This document shows positions 52,228 to 63,859 of a DNA stretch of 64,000 nucleotides, piece by piece. The position numbers and the translations under genes are program-made. Every line of letters starts with the position of its first letter. Position 1 is the first letter of the stretch. Under the pieces are notes generated by a model. It was not told the origin of the DNA and ran no database searches. It worked only from the letters and a program-made list of their open reading frames with translations. The DNA is from Olivibacter sp. SDN3 (GTDB taxonomy: Bacteria > Bacteroidota > Bacteroidia > Sphingobacteriales > Sphingobacteriaceae). The DNA is taken from assembly GCF_014334135.1 (NCBI RefSeq), contig NZ_CP060497.1, positions 4,464,001-4,528,000 of the forward strand, in the 5' to 3' direction.

Positions 52228-52806
52228 TTATTTTTTAAGTGCTTTTTTACGCACCCGACTTAGCGTGTCTTTTGTAATGCCAAGATAAGAAGCAATAATA
52301 TGTTGAGGGAAACGATTGACAAGCCTTGGATAATCCCGGACGAAGCACTTATAGCGCTTTTCTGCGGTAAAACTGATCGAAGTGATTCTTTTTTGTGCGG
52401 CAATATTATTTCGTTCATCCAGTTTCAATAGGAATTCATTAAAAGCGGGACATTCCCTGCAAAGTTTTAATAAACTTTCTCTTGTAATAAGGAGTACCTC
52501 ACAATCTTCCCACGCATCTATATGATAGATACTGGGCGTAAACATAACAAAACTCTCATGGTCACCCGCCCACCCATTTTCGGTATATAAATTAACGATA
52601 CGCTCGAAACCTTTTTCATCTATATAATATTGGCGCATGGCACCTTTTACGATAAAGGCAAAATATTTACATATTTCTCCTTCCTGTAATAGATATTGTT
52701 TTTTTCGTATTTTTTTTTGAATGAAATGGCTTCTTAGAACCCTAAATTCTTCTTTGGAAATTAAAGTGGAAACATGCTTGATAATATAATGGAAGAGTGG
52801 ATGCAT
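52228..52806 (-). CDS. Crp/Fnr-family regulator (tandem copy A)
   Basis: The 192-residue protein has a sensor domain (LLQEGEICKYFAFIVKGAMR) and HTH (FPQHIIASYLGITKDTLSRV). It is a close paralogue of 53087-53668, sharing nearly all of its blocks. Its gene lies 122 bp upstream of the hydrolase gene, in the same orientation. Confidence 0.92.
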   Translation of the reverse strand: MHPLFHYIIKHVSTLISKEEFRVLRSHFIQKKIRKKQYLLQEGEICKYFAFIVKGAMRQYYIDEKGFERIVNLYTENGWAGDHESFVMFTPSIYHIDAWEDCEVLLITRESLLKLCRECPAFNEFLLKLDERNNIAAQKRITSISFTAEKRYKCFVRDYPRLVNRFPQHIIASYLGITKDTLSRVRKKALKK

Positions 52807-53086: not shown

Positions 53087-53668
53087 TTACTTTTTAAGTG
53101 CTTTTTTACGCACCCGACTTAGTGTGTCTTTTGTAATGCCGAGATAAGAAGCAATGATATGTTGAGGAAACCGTTGTACAAAATATGGATGGCAGTCAAC
53201 AAAGTCTGCATAGCGTTTTTCCGCAGTAAAGCTGATCGAAGAAGTTATTCTTTTTTGTGTAGCAATATTATTTCGTTCATCAAGTTTCAATAACAATTCA
53301 TTAAAAGCAGGACATTCCTTACATAGTTTTAATGTATTTTCCCTTGAAATGAGGAGTACTTCACAATCTTCCCACGCATCTATATGGTACACACTGGGCG
53401 TAAACATAACAAAACTCTCACGGTCACCTGCCCACCAATTTTCGATATATAAATCAACGATGTGCTCAACACCTTTTTCATCTATATAATATTTACGCAT
53501 GGCACCTTTTGCGATAAAGGCCATATGTTTACATATTTCTCCTTCTGCTAATAGATATTGCTTCTTTCTTATCCTTTTCTGGATAAAATGGCTCCTGAAA
53601 ACCTTAAAATCTTCTTCGGACATTAAAGTTGAGGCGTATTTGTTAATATAATGGAATAATGAATCCAT
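53087..53668 (-). CDS. Crp/Fnr-family regulator (tandem copy B)
   Basis: The 193-residue paralogue of copy A: LLAEGEICKHMAFIAKGAMR, ENWWAGDRESFVMFTPSVYH and the same HTH with TKDTLSRVRKKALKK. Both sensor and DNA-binding parts are intact, so both may be active with overlapping targets. Confidence 0.92.
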   Translation of the reverse strand: MDSLFHYINKYASTLMSEEDFKVFRSHFIQKRIRKKQYLLAEGEICKHMAFIAKGAMRKYYIDEKGVEHIVDLYIENWWAGDRESFVMFTPSVYHIDAWEDCEVLLISRENTLKLCKECPAFNELLLKLDERNNIATQKRITSSISFTAEKRYADFVDCHPYFVQRFPQHIIASYLGITKDTLSRVRKKALKK

Positions 53669-55242: not shown

Positions 55243-56058
55243 TTAACCCGATTCAGCGAAGAATTTTAATTCTTTGCTGAATCGGGGTTTAAATTCCCTC
55301 GGTGATTTATTGCCCAATGAACTATGGGGATGGTTATTGTTGTAGTCCTCAGTCCATTCCCATACCTTTTCTCTCATCTGGTATATATCGTTGAAATAAT
55401 AGGCGTCCAGTATATCCTCTCTGAAAAAACGGTTGAAACGCTCCACATATCCGTTCTGCATTGGTTTTCCGGGCTGCGTATATCTGATCTCTATGTGATG
55501 CCGCTGGCACCAGTTTATGAAAAGCTTCGAAAGAAATTCCGGCCCGTTATCGCACCTGATATATTTCGGTGTACCGATCTCATCCCTTAAGTTCTCCAGA
55601 GTTTCAATAACTGTACGTGCCGGAAAAGACAATCCAATATCGGAAGCCAGTGCCTCCCGGTTGCAGTCATCGATCACGTTGAATACCCGTATCCTTCTGC
55701 CATCGGTAAGCGAATCGCTCATGAAATCCATGCTCCAGCATTCATTTAGTTCCAGGGGAACCTCCAATGGGCATTTCTCCCTTCCGGGCAGGCGCTTTTT
55801 ATGTTTTCTCCTCAATTTCAGTTTCATCTGGCGGTATACGCGCAGAACCCGTTTCCTGTTCCATTTCAAGCCCTCACGGCGGATCCTGTAATAATATTCA
55901 TCGAAACCCCGGGTGGGGTATGCGACCGCAAGCTGGGAAAGTTTTCCGATCAACTCACTATCATCCCGCTTACTGCTGTAGTACCACATGGATCTGGTAA
56001 GTCCCGCAACTGCGCACGCACGCTTTATCCCGATTTTATATGAATTCATCAGATACAT
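55243..56058 (-). CDS. IS407-group transposase OrfB (DDE)
   Basis: The 271-residue protein has an HTH_21 N-terminus (GIKRACAVAGLTRSMWYYSS) and an rve core: D in CWSMDFMSDSL, D in YIRCDNGPEF and E in NGYVERFNRFFRE. Translation probably starts upstream of the listed ATG, in overlap with OrfA, as in IS407 relatives. Confidence 0.92.
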   Translation of the reverse strand: MYLMNSYKIGIKRACAVAGLTRSMWYYSSKRDDSELIGKLSQLAVAYPTRGFDEYYYRIRREGLKWNRKRVLRVYRQMKLKLRRKHKKRLPGREKCPLEVPLELNECWSMDFMSDSLTDGRRIRVFNVIDDCNREALASDIGLSFPARTVIETLENLRDEIGTPKYIRCDNGPEFLSKLFINWCQRHHIEIRYTQPGKPMQNGYVERFNRFFREDILDAYYFNDIYQMREKVWEWTEDYNNNHPHSSLGNKSPREFKPRFSKELKFFAESG

Positions 56059-56084
56059 GGCGCACTGCCGTTTGCCGGAGGGCT

Positions 56085-56351
56085 TTAGAACTTTTTTGAC
56101 AACAGGTCTTTCAGCATTTTATTGTCCAGACTCACATCCGCATACATCTGCTTTAAACGCTGGTTTTCCTGTTCAAGTTCCTTCAGGCGTTTCAGTTCCC
56201 CGCTCTCCATGCCTCCGTATTTTTTTCGCCAGTAATAAAACGTGCTCTTGTCTATGCCCAGTTCCCGGGATATATCCCCGACACTGCGGCCTCCTTCGTT
56301 CTCCTTTAATGCCTTGACGATCTGGCTCTCGCTGAATGTGTGTTTTCTCAT
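56085..56351 (-). CDS. IS407-group transposase OrfA
   Basis: The 88-residue protein has the HTH (SESQIVKALKENEGG, DISRELGIDKSTFYYWRKK YGGM) and a coiled coil (LKELEQENQRLKQMYADVSLD). It binds the IS ends. Confidence 0.9.
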   Translation of the reverse strand: MRKHTFSESQIVKALKENEGGRSVGDISRELGIDKSTFYYWRKKYGGMESGELKRLKELEQENQRLKQMYADVSLDNKMLKDLLSKKF

Positions 56352-56893: not shown

Positions 56894-57190
56894 GCCATTA
56901 ACAATATCCATCATGGTAATATATCTTCATAACAAAATAGAGACTGGAAAATTTCAGTCCGTGATATTCGCCTGCGCCAATAATATTTCGAACAGACATA
57001 CTGCTGGCTACTTTCGTTTATTTACTATTGTAACATTCTGATTTATCTAGTGCTATTTTATACGATTTAGCAGCATTAACCACTTTTTCGTAAAAAAATA
57101 ATATTTGGGTGTAGCACAAACCATAACTCATTCGTGTAATAAATGTAATGCGTATTACTTTAATTTATTAATCATTAAAAACGAATTATT
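56894..57190. other. Leader region of the graspetide cluster
   Basis: No gene. It is A/T-rich and should hold the promoter. A small dyad GTAAT-GCGT-ATTAC lies at 57145-57158, 33 bp before the precursor start, and could be an operator. No strong match to TTG-N19-TAnnTTTG is seen. Confidence 0.4.
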
Positions 57191-57361
57191 ATGGAAACTA
57201 CAAAAAGAAAGCAGCCTTTCTTCGCTAAATTTCTAGAAGGGCAAAAAACTGAAAAAGATGCTAAAAACCAGAAAGGTACGCAACAAGGATCATCTAACTT
57301 CTTTGAAGAAGGATGGGACGTAACTTTAAAATTCCCTTCTGACAGTGACGAAGGCTTATAA
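57191..57361 (+). CDS. Microviridin-type graspetide precursor peptide (56 aa)
   Basis: The peptide starts METTKRKQPFFAKFLEGQ: residues 9-18 are the microviridin leader motif PFF(A)(K/R)FLxxQ that docks on the ATP-grasp ligases. A Gln/Lys-rich linker follows. The core near the C-terminus is TLKFPSDSDE (residues 45-54), matching the TxKxPSD-acidic pattern. By analogy Thr45-Asp51 and Ser50-Asp53 would form omega-ester rings and Lys47-Glu54 an omega-amide ring, with GL left as tail. The residue at microviridin position 12 is Asp, not Glu. The two ligases follow directly, which makes the call strong. Confidence 0.93.
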   Translation: METTKRKQPFFAKFLEGQKTEKDAKNQKGTQQGSSNFFEEGWDVTLKFPSDSDEGL

Positions 57362-57390
57362 GTCTTTTAGCTGAAAGTTTTAGTATATAG

Positions 57391-57415
57391 CAAGAGGTTG
57401 GTTCCCAGCCTCTTG
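57391..57415 (+). terminator. Hairpin between precursor and ligase genes (attenuator candidate)
   Basis: Stem CAAGAGG / CCTCTTG, with a further GG/CC pairing possible, lies 30 bp after the precursor stop, followed by TTTC. It is a weak terminator at best and may lower expression of the enzymes relative to the precursor. Confidence 0.55.
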
Positions 57416-57431
57416 TTTCATAAATACCAAT

Positions 57432-58403
57432 ATGATTCTATGCATTACACATTCAAATGATTTCTATACGATTGACATTGTACAGCGGCACTTAGAAAAA
57501 TTGGGATACCAGTCATTCCGTCTCAATTCCGATAAATTTGCGATAGATTATCAGATCAATTACACTTTGCAGAAGGATGGAGAAGACTATTGCTTGTCAG
57601 ACACGGAGCAGAGTATACATGCTTCTCAAATTGAGGCGGTTTGGTATCGTAAACTATGGGATTTAATTGTGCCAAATGAGCTGGATCAAACTTATAGGTC
57701 TGTTTTTAGACAAGAATACCAAACCGCTCAACAATTGTTTATTAATAGTATTGAGCGGATTCCCTGGATAAATAATATGCAGATTGATCATGCGGTTGGT
57801 GGTGATAAACTAATGCAACTTAAAGCCGCGAGAGCAGCTGGACTTTATATTCCGCAAACGCTTTTTAGCAATGATCCAGCCATGATTAAGCACTTTTATA
57901 AAATATGTGATACTAATGTTGTGGCGAAATTACATGGATCACTTTCAAAAAGTATGGATGGCAACACCCCATTTTTTCCTACGACAAAATTAGCTGCGTC
58001 CGATTTAGAGAATCTCGAAGCAATGGCATATAGCCCAATGATTTTTCAAAAACACATAGTAAAAGCATATGAATTGAGAATTGTATATGTTGATGGCGTT
58101 TTCTTCACAGGAAAAATCCCTGCTGATGGTGATAAGATAGATTGGCGTATTGTAACGGGTAAGCCCATTCTCTGGGAACAGTATAAGCTACCGGAATTTT
58201 TAGGGCTTCGACTTACAGAAATGATGAATAAGTTAGGCTTACATTTTGGAGCTATAGATATGATAAGAAAACCCAACGGACAATATGTCTTTCTTGAGGT
58301 GAACCCTCAAGGAGAATGGGGAATGTTGCAAAAACACTTAGGCTACCCTATCGGAGAAACAATTGCTGAAAAATTGGTAGCACGTATTAAAATAAACAAA
58401 TGA
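57432..58403 (+). CDS. mvdC: MvdC/MdnB-type ATP-grasp ligase
   Basis: This 323-residue protein is of the graspetide ATP-grasp family. Visible blocks are ILCITHSNDFYTIDIVQRHLE at the N-terminus, AVWYRKLWDLIVP, GGDKLMQLKAARAAGLYIPQ, VAKLHGSLSK (ATP-binding Lys), ELRIVYVDGVFFTGKI and HFGAIDMIRKPNGQYVFLEVNPQGEW, with the metal-binding Glu and Asn. MvdC-type enzymes close the omega-amide (Lys-Glu) ring in microviridins; assignment to MvdC rather than MvdD is by resemblance. Downstream gene overlaps by ATGA. Confidence 0.92.
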   Translation: MILCITHSNDFYTIDIVQRHLEKLGYQSFRLNSDKFAIDYQINYTLQKDGEDYCLSDTEQSIHASQIEAVWYRKLWDLIVPNELDQTYRSVFRQEYQTAQQLFINSIERIPWINNMQIDHAVGGDKLMQLKAARAAGLYIPQTLFSNDPAMIKHFYKICDTNVVAKLHGSLSKSMDGNTPFFPTTKLAASDLENLEAMAYSPMIFQKHIVKAYELRIVYVDGVFFTGKIPADGDKIDWRIVTGKPILWEQYKLPEFLGLRLTEMMNKLGLHFGAIDMIRKPNGQYVFLEVNPQGEWGMLQKHLGYPIGETIAEKLVARIKINK

Positions 58404-59395
58404 GTAAAAACAAAGTACTAATAATCACGCATACTGCCGATAATACATCTGTAGACACCGTTGTAAAATATATTCATGATTTAGGAGGAGATGTTATACG
58501 CTTCGATGTTGATCGTTATCCACTTCGTACCGAACTGTCATCCCTCTTTCTGGACAATAAGTGGAAAGTTGTGCTAGCTGACGGTAAGACGTATCACGAT
58601 TTGGAAAATATAGATAGTGTATGGTATCGAAGAAGTCACTATATCGGCAAAGGCCTTAATGAATCGATGGATCAAGCTTATCTATCGGCAGCGATGGGCG
58701 AAATCAAGCGAAGCTTTTACGGAATGATTGAGGGGCTAGATTGTTTTCAGATGGAAAAGTACAGTACATATCGACGCTTAGATAGTAAAGAAGAGCAACT
58801 TAAAATAGCGGTAAAGTGCGGGATGCAAATCCCTCCAACTTGTATAACCAACTCGCCGGAAGAACTAAAGACATTCATAGAACAAGTAAAAGGGCCGGTA
58901 GTAACCAAGATGCAAAGTTCGTTTTCCTTATACAAAAAGGATAAAGAGCAGGTTGTGTTTACCAATGAAGTTCTCTCAGAACATTTAGATGAGCTAGATA
59001 GCCTGAGTTATTGTCCTATGACCTTCCAAAAGAAAATTGAAAAAAAGCTAGAGCTGCGTGTTACGATTGTTGGAGATCAACTGTTTGCTTTCAGTATTGA
59101 TTCTCAAAATAAAGAGCGTGCAAGAATTGACTGGCGGAAAGAGGGAGTAATTTTAGTCGACCATTGGAAACCGTTTAACTTACCTGCCCATATAAGGAAG
59201 CAATTACTGCAGTACATGGATACTTACAGGCTAAATTATGGAGCAATTGACCTCATTCTAACGCCTGAGGATGATTATTACTTTTTAGAGTTAAATCCCG
59301 CCGGAGAATATTTTTGGCTTGATAAGTTATGTGATCATGCTATTTCAAAACAAATAGCAAGTGTGCTTATGAATAATACGTATAGAAGGGAGTAA
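58400..59395 (+). CDS. mvdD: MvdD/MdnC-type ATP-grasp ligase
   Basis: The 331-residue protein has IITHTADNTSVDTVVKYIHD, SVWYRRSHYIGKG, VVTKMQSSFSLY, YCPMTFQKKIEKKLELRVTI, RIDWRKEG and LNYGAIDLILTPEDDYYFLE followed by LNPAGEYFWLD. These match the lactone-forming MdnC/MvdD enzymes. It would make the two omega-ester rings on Thr and Ser before the first ligase makes the amide. It starts within the stop of the first ligase gene (ATGA), so translation is coupled. It is the last gene of the cluster; no exporter or protease follows. Confidence 0.92.
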   Translation: MSKNKVLIITHTADNTSVDTVVKYIHDLGGDVIRFDVDRYPLRTELSSLFLDNKWKVVLADGKTYHDLENIDSVWYRRSHYIGKGLNESMDQAYLSAAMGEIKRSFYGMIEGLDCFQMEKYSTYRRLDSKEEQLKIAVKCGMQIPPTCITNSPEELKTFIEQVKGPVVTKMQSSFSLYKKDKEQVVFTNEVLSEHLDELDSLSYCPMTFQKKIEKKLELRVTIVGDQLFAFSIDSQNKERARIDWRKEGVILVDHWKPFNLPAHIRKQLLQYMDTYRLNYGAIDLILTPEDDYYFLELNPAGEYFWLDKLCDHAISKQIASVLMNNTYRRE

Positions 59396-59593: not shown

Positions 59594-59857
59594 ATGAAAA
59601 CTGTCAATAGTTTAAGCGGGGCCAAAAACATAGGCAAAACAATTGCAAGGAAACTAAACGAAATAGGCGTTTATACCCTAACGGATTTAAGAAAAATGAC
59701 CTCTGTGAGTGCTTACCGGCAGATCTGCAAAAGATATCCGAATGAGACAATTCCAGTATGTTACTATTTATATTCCTTGCAGGGCGCAATACTTAATATC
59801 GACTGGAGAAATTTGCCGGAAAATATCAAGCAAACGCTGAAAGATGAAATTATTTGA
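59594..59857 (+). CDS. TfoX/Sxy C-terminal-domain protein
   Basis: The 87-residue protein is a stand-alone TfoX_C domain: LSGAKNIGKTIARKLNEIGVYTLTDLRK (helix-hairpin-helix) and YYLYSLQGAILNIDWRNLPE. The domain occurs in Sxy competence regulators but here lacks the N-terminal part, so regulation of competence is not implied. It is in the same orientation as the graspetide genes, but 198 bp away. Confidence 0.85.
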   Translation: MKTVNSLSGAKNIGKTIARKLNEIGVYTLTDLRKMTSVSAYRQICKRYPNETIPVCYYLYSLQGAILNIDWRNLPENIKQTLKDEII

Positions 59858-60692: not shown

Positions 60693-61964
60693 ATGAATAC
60701 ACCTGTTCCAGAATATCTCGCAAACCTACTCTATAATTGTAAAGCCAACGGTGGTGGACAACTCGCGGATTACATACCTGAGCTAGCTTCAGCTGACCCG
60801 AATAAACTTGCAGTTGCATTAACTACTTTAGACGGTTTGGTGTATAGCGCTGGTGATGACGAATATGAATTTAGCATACAGTCAATCTCCAAAGCTTTTA
60901 CCTATGCTTATGTAATTGAAGAGCTTGGGCTAGACACGGTACTGAAGAAAGTCGGAGTCGAACCATCTGGCGAAGCTTTTAACGAAATTTCGCTGGATCA
61001 ATCAGAAGATCGGCCAAAGCCAAAAAATCCAATGATTAATTCAGGTGCAATTACCACACATTCACTTATTGCCAACGCCGATAACACCTGTAGAGCTGAA
61101 ATAATACGAAAATTTTTCAGTGAATTAGCAGGACGAGAATTATCATTTGATATGTCTATTTTTCAATCCGAGATGAATACAGCGTATCGAAATTTGTCGA
61201 TCGGTTATTCTTTACGTAATGTCAGTATTCTGGAGAGCGATCCCACTGAAATCATTGAAAGCTATATCAAACAGTGTTCTATCAATGTTACTGTGAAAGA
61301 TTTGGTCAATATGATCAGTGTATTGGTAAATGATGGTATTCTGCCCCGAACAGGTGAGCGAATTCTTAGCCATAAAACAGTCCGTCAAGTATTAACTGTA
61401 ATGACCACGTGCGGCATGTACGATGCAGCAGGAGATTGGCTCGCCAACGTCGGCATTCCTGCCAAAAGTGGGGTAGCCGGGGGAATTATCGGCGTATTAC
61501 CCGGTCAGGTTGGCCTGGCAGTATTTTCGCCTAAGCTTGACGGTCACGGCAACAGTGTACGTGGTATCGACATAATGCAACAATTGTCCAACGATATGGG
61601 TTTACACCTGTTGGAAGGTGTTCCATCATCAAGAGTCATTGTACACGATCAGTCCGTTGTTCGGACGAAACCAGAGGTTAAAGTGTATAAATTACAAGGT
61701 GTTCTGCAATTCACCGAAGCTGAGCGACTGCTACGTATTTTGCAAGATGAAGACAAGAGTGATAATATTATCGTATTTGATCTAAGTCATATTTCCTTGG
61801 TGAATGATGTAGGTCGTCGTATGTTTCTCGATGGCATTGACCGGCTGAGAGCTGATGGGCATGATGTTGCATTGATAGACCCCGATCTCGTATTGCGTGA
61901 TGCGAAAACACCGCGAAAATTTGTGCCGAAAATTTATCAAGATATCCAGGAAGTCCTAAATTAA
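60693..61964 (+). CDS. glsA: Glutaminase A fused to a C-terminal STAS domain
   Basis: The 423-residue protein has a full serine-dependent glutaminase domain (residues about 10-310) with the SxxK motif FSIQSISKAF, NPMINSGAI and GVAGGIIGVLPGQVGLAVFSP. Then a STAS domain (about 325-423) with VYKLQGVLQFTEAERLLRIL and VFDLSHISLVNDVGRRMF. The enzyme turns glutamine into glutamate and ammonia. The STAS part may bind nucleotides or partner proteins. Upstream is a transposase relic; downstream an IS. Confidence 0.93.
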   Translation: MNTPVPEYLANLLYNCKANGGGQLADYIPELASADPNKLAVALTTLDGLVYSAGDDEYEFSIQSISKAFTYAYVIEELGLDTVLKKVGVEPSGEAFNEISLDQSEDRPKPKNPMINSGAITTHSLIANADNTCRAEIIRKFFSELAGRELSFDMSIFQSEMNTAYRNLSIGYSLRNVSILESDPTEIIESYIKQCSINVTVKDLVNMISVLVNDGILPRTGERILSHKTVRQVLTVMTTCGMYDAAGDWLANVGIPAKSGVAGGIIGVLPGQVGLAVFSPKLDGHGNSVRGIDIMQQLSNDMGLHLLEGVPSSRVIVHDQSVVRTKPEVKVYKLQGVLQFTEAERLLRILQDEDKSDNIIVFDLSHISLVNDVGRRMFLDGIDRLRADGHDVALIDPDLVLRDAKTPRKFVPKIYQDIQEVLN

Positions 61965-62140: not shown

Positions 62141-62249
62141 GAGCTGTCTAAAAAGCCCTATTAATAGAAGATCCCCGATACTGAAAAAGTGTCGGGGATT
62201 TTTATTTTTTGTCCTAAAAAACAGTTATTTTTAGGTGCACCCAAACAAT

Positions 62250-62666
62250 ATGGCAAACATACTATTCAAAGCATTACCGTCCAACAGTCCGAGCCTGTTT
62301 CCGGAAGATATTTTTGCAAAGATCCCAGAGAACCACCCGGTACGTCTGGTAAATGCAGTGGTTGACAGACTGAACATCGACCACATCATAGGACAGTACA
62401 AAGGTGGCGGCACGAGCAGTTTCCATCCGCGTATGATGATCAAAGTGCTGTTCTATGCCTATCTGGGCAACATCTATTCGTGCCGCAGGATAGAAAAGGC
62501 CTTACAGGAGAATATCTATTTCATGTGGCTTTCGGGCCACAGTGCACCGGATTACCGAACGATCAACCACTTCCGTGGCAAAAGACTTAAAGGGCATATC
62601 CATTCCCTTTTTGCCGATGTTGTCCGTTTGCTTGCCGAACTGGGCTATGTAAGCCTAAAGGTCCAG
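62250..62666 (+). pseudogene. IS1182-family transposase, 5' part (interrupted)
   Basis: The frame from 62250 has DRLNIDHIIGQYKGGG, MIKVLFYAYLGNIYSCRRIEKAL and FMWLSGHSAPDYRTINHFRG, the N-terminal region of IS1182-type transposases. It continues with codons at 63921-64000 after removal of the IS3 copy and one CCAG, in frame. The insertion inactivates it. Confidence 0.9.
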
Positions 62667-62696
62667 TGGAATTGCAACTTAAAATAGGAGACTTTT

Positions 62697-63527
62697 TTAT
62701 GCTGCCATTTTCTCTTTTTCCAATAGCATCTCTTCGATCTGCTTAGGGGTTTTATATCCCAGGGCAGAATGTGTTCTTTTGGTATTATAAAAACCTTCAA
62801 TATATCCAAAGATCTCCAATTTAGCCGATTGCTGATCGATGAATTTTCTATGGTAGATCATTTCAGCCTTTAGTGTCTTGAAAAAGCTCTCAGCTACTGC
62901 ATTGTCCCAGCAATTGGCCTTCCTACTCATGCTTTGAAGTATCTTGTTTTTTACAATTACCCTCCTGAATTCATCGCAGGCATATTGGATCCCTCTATCC
63001 GAATGGAAGATAAGACCATCTTTGATACCTCGGTTTCTAATAGCCATTTTGATGGCTTGTACAGAAGTGTTTTTAGTCGTCATATCGGTGCTTAAAGACC
63101 ATCCAATGACTTTTCTGTCCGCCAGATCGATAACCGTTGTTAGATAAAGCCACCCTTTGCCGGTATGGATGTAAGTAATGTCGCTAACCCATTTTTGCGA
63201 TAGGGAATCCGCTGAAAAATCTCTTTGGAGGAGATTTTCAGCTATCCTATAACTATGGCTCGAATCTGTGGTCACCCTATATTTTTTCTTAACCTTACTT
63301 CGTATCCCATGTTTCTTCATCAATCTTGCTACGTAGCTTCTTGATACCATTTCACCTTTTTTGTGCAGCTCTGCGGTTATCCGTGGGCTGCCATAGATAT
63401 ACTTACTGTCACTGTGTACCTGCTGTATTTTATCCACAAGTGCTTTACTGCGTTGTTCCCTGGGGGATTCGGGCCAAACCAGCCAACGGTAAAAACAACT
63501 GCTGCTAACGTTCAATACTTCGCACAT
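62697..63527 (-). CDS. IS3-family transposase OrfB (copy 2)
   Basis: Identical in sequence to 804-1634: DDE core with WVSDITYIHTG, HSDRGIQYA and AVAESFFKTL. Active product is probably OrfAB by -1 frameshift. Confidence 0.93.
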   Translation of the reverse strand: MCEVLNVSSSCFYRWLVWPESPREQRSKALVDKIQQVHSDSKYIYGSPRITAELHKKGEMVSRSYVARLMKKHGIRSKVKKKYRVTTDSSHSYRIAENLLQRDFSADSLSQKWVSDITYIHTGKGWLYLTTVIDLADRKVIGWSLSTDMTTKNTSVQAIKMAIRNRGIKDGLIFHSDRGIQYACDEFRRVIVKNKILQSMSRKANCWDNAVAESFFKTLKAEMIYHRKFIDQQSAKLEIFGYIEGFYNTKRTHSALGYKTPKQIEEMLLEKEKMAA

Positions 63528-63559
63528 CTTCTCTACGGAATATACTTCTCGGTTCTCCT

Positions 63560-63859
63560 TTATGAACCGGTATATGGACCGTCTCCCCTGGAGAAGATGG
63601 CTATGGCCTTTTTTAAGATATCGCGTTCTAATTCTGTATCTCTTAATTTCTTGCGTAAAATCCTTAACTCCTGCTCCTCCGGACTGATCTTGGGATTGTC
63701 AGGTAAAACCTTATTCCCATTATAACGTGGATTTCTACGCCATTTACTCAGTAAACTGGGGTCTATGTCTAATTCCTTAGCTACATCGGCTACAGATCCC
63801 TTAACAACGCTCAAATCGACCGCCATTATCTTAAACGAATCATCAAATTTTCTATGCAT
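63560..63859 (-). CDS. IS3-family transposase OrfA (copy 2)
   Basis: Identical to 472-771: transposase_8 HTH plus coiled coil, with the A AAA AAG slip site near its 3' end. Confidence 0.9.
   Translation of the reverse strand: MHRKFDDSFKIMAVDLSVVKGSVADVAKELDIDPSLLSKWRRNPRYNGNKVLPDNPKISPEEQELRILRKKLRDTELERDILKKAIAIFSRGDGPYTGS

Follow-up and report, generated by a model that had tools for sequence, protein, structure and literature searches.

A conserved single-core microviridin-type graspetide cluster in the Bacteroidota strain Olivibacter sp. SDN3

The closest described systems to the gene cluster analyzed here are the cyanobacterial microviridins (MdnA/MdnB/MdnC; MvdE/MvdC/MvdD) and chryseoviridin of Chryseobacterium gregarium (CdnA/CdnB/CdnC). 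In the full cyanobacterial mdn/mvd cluster, an acetyltransferase and an ABC transporter are encoded beside the ligases. The amide made by the MvdC-type enzyme comes after the esters, and microviridin B is known to inhibit elastase. For the characterized MvdD-type enzymes, the large ester was described to be formed first and the small ester second, and the selectivity of the inhibitors was tied to the residue in the fifth position, counted from the C-terminus (PMC7823629). The motif TxxxxDxxxTxKxPSDxD[DE] was described for Chryseobacterium, and one published group of this peptide family comprises 185 precursors (both in PMC8939145).

In the analyzed window, a stretch of 64,000 nucleotides from Olivibacter sp. 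SDN3, the reading of the ORFs revealed three adjoining genes on the plus strand in the order precursor, MvdC-type and MvdD-type ATP-grasp ligase. An earlier note on this DNA had described a 56-codon precursor with PFFAKFLEGQ and a single copy of the core motif TLKFPSDSDE, followed by the two ligase genes with an ATGA overlap. All of this could be confirmed: the precursor gene is located at 57191..57361, the MvdC/MdnB-type gene (323 aa, predicted omega-amide former) at 57432..58403 and the MvdD/MdnC-type gene (331 aa, predicted omega-ester former) at 58400..59395. This microviridin-type cluster with its single core is genuine and conserved, and its peptide family is already known. Taken as a whole, the best explanation, held with high confidence, is that this Bacteroidota species encodes a single-core microviridin-type graspetide with a tricyclic product. 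None of the entries listed by a literature search names the cluster, and the search touched on operon or terminator control only slightly.

The sequence of the precursor is METTKRKQPFFAKFLEGQKTEKDAKNQKGTQQGSSNFFEEGWDVTLKFPSDSDEGL. It was matched by both NF033738 (48.2 bits, E 1.4e-12) and PF12559 (36.3 bits), well above the respective cut-offs of 26 and 21, which agrees with the peptide family proposed beforehand. The leader motif PFFAKFLEGQ was found at residues 9-18 and the core at T45-L-K-F-P-S-D-S-D-E54. Thus, PFFAxFL and TxKxPSDx[DE][DE] can both be read directly in the precursor, and the same two motifs are carried by 16 other Bacteroidota precursors according to pattern search and inspection by eye. 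The ring spacing of the core (D at T+6, an acid at S+3 and E at K+7) is identical to the spacing given for microviridin B in PMC7823629. A profile search of the whole genome returned one precursor match, with one core motif.

Homologous precursors were found in two further genomes of the genus, G305 and G400. The core is VTLKFPSDSDEGL in SDN3 and G305 and VTLKFPSDSDEELL in G400. Between SDN3 and G305, 8 of the 13 core codons differ and every difference is synonymous, whereas the spacer linking the leader to the core has diverged, with a length difference of one residue. Since the core stayed unchanged while the adjoining spacer drifted, the product has a conserved function. The stretch AKNQ[KD]G[TN]QQ following the leader helix was kept in all three precursors.

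The assignment of the ligases to the MvdC and MvdD types, also claimed before, held in the family searches, in which these models ranked first and well ahead of RimK. For the MvdC-type ligase, TIGR04185 (MvdC) gave 381 bits (E 3.7e-114) compared to only 222 bits for TIGR04184, and for the MvdD-type ligase TIGR04184 (MvdD) gave 434 bits (E 2.3e-130) compared to only 269 bits for TIGR04185. Two other peptide-maturase models scored lower, with 176 and 227 bits (TIGR04187) and 125 and 140 bits (TIGR04192) for the MvdC-type and the MvdD-type protein respectively, and the RimK model reached 36 and 39 bits. Both best scores are nevertheless below the NCBIfam equivalog cut-offs (381 vs. 425 for TIGR04185 and 434 vs. 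475 for TIGR04184), and the MvdC-type proteins of G305 (375.2 bits) and G400 (371.5 bits) are likewise below 425. Among the solved structures, PDB 5ig8 is the best relative of the MvdC-type ligase (E 1.9e-69), and the MvdD-type ligase is closest to CdnC (7mgv, E 7.7e-116), followed by 5ig9 (E 7.2e-80). The motif DWR was found in both ligases; the E-x-N end motif was matched in the MvdC-type ligase only, and the MvdD-type ligase reads ELNPAGEY at this place.

A tree built from the 20 ligases of ten clusters and midpoint-rooted for drawing split the MvdC and MvdD types at 100/100, with two Nostoc sequences in each clade. Within the MvdD type, SDN3, G305, G400 and Chitinophaga japonensis grouped together at 91/91, and within the MvdC type SDN3, G400 and C. 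japonensis at 81/83 with G305 outside; neither value represents strong support. The ligases of SDN3, G305 and G400 are 57-63% identical to one another. By its best models, its PDB matches and its place in the tree, the pair is an adjacent MvdC-type and MvdD-type ligase pair.

The earlier note had pointed to an Asp at core position 12, usually a Glu. The Asp is present, but the stated rule does not hold for the Bacteroidota: of 18 cores, taken from 17 precursors of 11 genomes, 17 have Asp at this position and one has Glu. These cores are not independent, as 6 of the 11 source genomes belong to one genus, and they were collected as every frame shorter than 200 aa with PFFAxFL in the fetched loci, a count that misses precursors without PFFAxFL. 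Two Nostoc plasmid records, a very small cyanobacterial sample, provided five cores, four of which have Glu. A single precursor of G456 carries two full cores that differ at this position, with Glu in one and Asp in the other. D95 was listed beside E53 and E78 among the acids needed for the second macrolactone (PMC5934393), so that Asp at position 12 is workable in a related enzyme. Novelty of Asp12 was therefore rejected; it is a known variant and no departure within the Bacteroidota.

Compared to chryseoviridin, the SDN3 cluster shares the two ATP-grasp ligases, the core end PSDxD[DE] known from Chryseobacterium (PMC8939145) and the CdnC-like MvdD-type ligase. The ligases are about 47% (MvdC type) and 53-56% (MvdD type) identical to those of three Chryseobacterium-like genomes, so labeled by eye because of their resemblance to CdnC, and these genomes also show a hairpin in the gap between precursor and ligase genes. 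Unlike chryseoviridin, for which extra TxxxxD segments (PMC8939145) and several precursors are characteristic, the SDN3 cluster has one precursor with one core, no TxxxxD ring segments and no GG motif in its 56 residues.

With the cyanobacterial microviridins, the SDN3 precursor has the PFFAxFL leader, the TxKxPSD core and the equal ring spacing in common, and differs from them by the Asp at position 12. The gene order precursor-MvdC-MvdD is the same in Nostoc sp. UHCC 0870, whose cluster adjoins an ABC transporter, unlike that of SDN3. The SDN3 ligases are 39-43% identical to those of two Nostoc clusters. The cluster of C. japonensis (L005) shows the same gene order, KFPSD cores and a hairpin in the gap, and its MvdC-type ligase is 54% identical to that of SDN3; it differs by two precursor genes (L005 5412-5931) with the cores TLKFPSDWDDADWG and TQKFPSDGDEEWDI.

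The genes, their family membership and their conservation were observed here, and from them we infer the bonds, the bond order, the cleavage of the leader and the activity and target of the peptide as follows. The PFFAKFL leader helix would dock on both ligases. The MvdD-type ligase would make two esters, T45-D51 and S50-D53, and the MvdC-type ligase would afterwards make the amide K47-E54, resulting in a tricyclic cage that has lost three waters. It is very likely that the ligases turn the short peptide into a three-ring microviridin-like cage. The leader may then be cut off by a protease encoded away from the cluster, perhaps after Gly29 of AKNQ[KD]G[TN]QQ; this site is a guess based on the position of the stretch, which is about that of KGG in most Chryseobacterium-like precursors. 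The caged peptide is predicted to be probably a protease inhibitor and would likely act on a serine protease; its selectivity would likely be set by Leu46. The fifth position is presumably to be counted from the N-terminus, since the count from the C-terminus lands on a ring residue, and microviridin B likewise has Leu there.

A different role of the peptide, for example as a signal or as an inhibitor of an own protease rather than a secreted inhibitor, is unlikely. No ABC exporter, peptidase or acetyltransferase was found among the 18 proteins scanned in the window (49.9-63.9 kb, the three of the cluster included), a difference from the full mdn/mvd gene set; the lack of a dedicated exporter or peptidase there would be in line with another role. 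The same holds for G400, where the ligase genes are directly followed on the same strand by those for a histidine kinase and a LytTR response regulator (L027 6522-8326). However, six C39 peptidase matches were found elsewhere in the SDN3 genome, the closest at a distance of about 840 kb, so that export in trans is possible. In addition, an EamA-type transporter is encoded just 5′ of the cluster in G305, and the core retains the motif of known protease inhibitors. A dedicated C39 exporter could not be linked to the cluster: C39 matches were found in four of the five genus genomes, including G016, which has no precursor.

Still less probable is a product with partial rings (one or two esters and no amide) or with extra upstream rings as in chryseoviridin. 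In its favor, CdnC, the solved structure closest to the MvdD-type ligase, belongs to the multi-ring chryseoviridin system (PMC8939145), and within residues 34-43 the pairs S34/E39 and S35/E40 are spaced like the T and D of TxxxxD. However, the frame of the MvdC-type ligase is open in all three genus clusters, and the TxxxxDxxxT spacing of Chryseobacterium, as given in PMC8939145, is not present in the precursor. Extra rings upstream of the core were rejected, since the candidate residues of both pairs are not conserved in G305 and G400.

The precursor family was found to be rare in the order, with matches in 2 of 400 sampled genomes, and was detected in 8 of 395 genomes of the phylum sample (SDN3 included in both). 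Within the genus, precursor and ligase pair were identified in three of five genomes, each representing one species: SDN3, G305 and G400. In G016 and G169, the precursor was not found even at E 1. Two weaker ATP-grasp matches (162 and 91 bits) were detected in G016. On contig 67 of this genome (519-5687), a divergent ATP-grasp maturase lies near two weak C39 matches and may be part of another peptide cluster.

The flanking genes differ among the three carriers, as judged by eye from gene lists. The window flanks encode RibD_C and TfoX_C proteins, the latter a small protein with a stand-alone TfoX C-terminal domain, encoded just 3′ of the cluster (59594-59857). In G305 the flanks comprise the EamA transporter and a chloramphenicol-acetyltransferase-type protein, encoded 3′ of the ligases (L026 10382-11044). 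Transposase genes were found on both sides of the SDN3 cluster (55243-56351, 62235-62687 and 62697-63859), comprising gene pairs with the domains rve and HTH_Tnp_1 as well as a fragment of a DUF772 transposase. Because the surroundings of the three carriers differ, the gene lists suggest that the cluster may have moved between chromosomal sites. A glutaminase gene with a STAS domain (60693-61964) is present in SDN3 only, one of the five genus genomes, so that no empty site could be defined. Further upstream in the window, two very similar proteins with a cNMP-binding domain (52228-52806 and 53087-53668) are encoded about 0.3 kb apart, an apparent duplication.

Upstream of the precursor gene, a near-palindromic, operator-like element, GTAATGCGTATTACT, was identified at 57145..57159 on the plus strand, separated from the precursor start by 31 bases. 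It is identical in SDN3, G305 and G400 and represents the longest block common to their 150-base upstream regions; in 1,000 dinucleotide shuffles, the longest shared block did not exceed 11 bases. Its 14-base core has exactly one exact site in each of these three genomes and zero in G016 and G169, the genus genomes without the cluster. In addition, TGTAGC and TCGT, separated by 16 bases, were found by eye 5′ of the element in all three clusters. A wider regulon is not claimed, as the 14-mer with up to one mismatch gave 12 sites in the five genomes compared to 14 for the reversed control, and only the three exact sites stand out. In C. japonensis, GTAATGCGTATTAC was not present in the 160 upstream bases aligned. 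A different palindrome, AACGTGACACGTT, is located there 5′ of the first precursor. We propose the region of GTAATGCGTATTACT as a candidate promoter with an operator.

Between the precursor and the MvdC-type gene, an attenuator-like intercistronic hairpin with a 13-bp stem was detected (57389..57417, plus strand). The gap (57359-57432) has a minimum free energy of −21.5 kcal/mol, with a z-score of −4.37 compared to 200 dinucleotide shuffles. An uninterrupted stem of 11-13 bp between the last precursor gene and the MvdC-type gene was found in all eight Bacteroidota clusters examined, which are those of the 11 found by the searches except G658, G670 and G701. The stem was first spotted in the SDN3 sequence, and shuffled gap sequences served as control: in each of the eight gaps the stem length was matched by at most 2 of 1,000 mononucleotide shuffles (G-U pairs allowed). 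A hairpin by chance was therefore rejected, although the G305 gap is weak by energy (z-score of −1.26, mononucleotide shuffles). The sequence of the stem varies between clades. A T run after or overlapping the stem end was found in C. japonensis, G456 and the three Chryseobacterium-like genomes. Two Nostoc gaps, which were not counted, are 380 and 264 bases long; their arms measure 13 and 14 bp, and their z-scores are −0.81 and −2.41. The hairpin fits a candidate partial terminator that would give more peptide than enzyme. A combined reading, in which GTAATGCGTATTACT and TGTAGC-N16-TCGT form a dedicated operator/promoter moving with the cluster and the hairpin sets the peptide-to-ligase ratio, is tentative and somewhat short of an even chance.

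The cluster adds a small single-core microviridin-type peptide, conserved within its genus, from an order in which the precursor family is rare. To our knowledge, the switching-on of such clusters has been little studied outside the cyanobacteria, and the upstream element may offer a handle on it. If the combined reading is true, a single signal or regulator would govern production of the peptide in all carriers.
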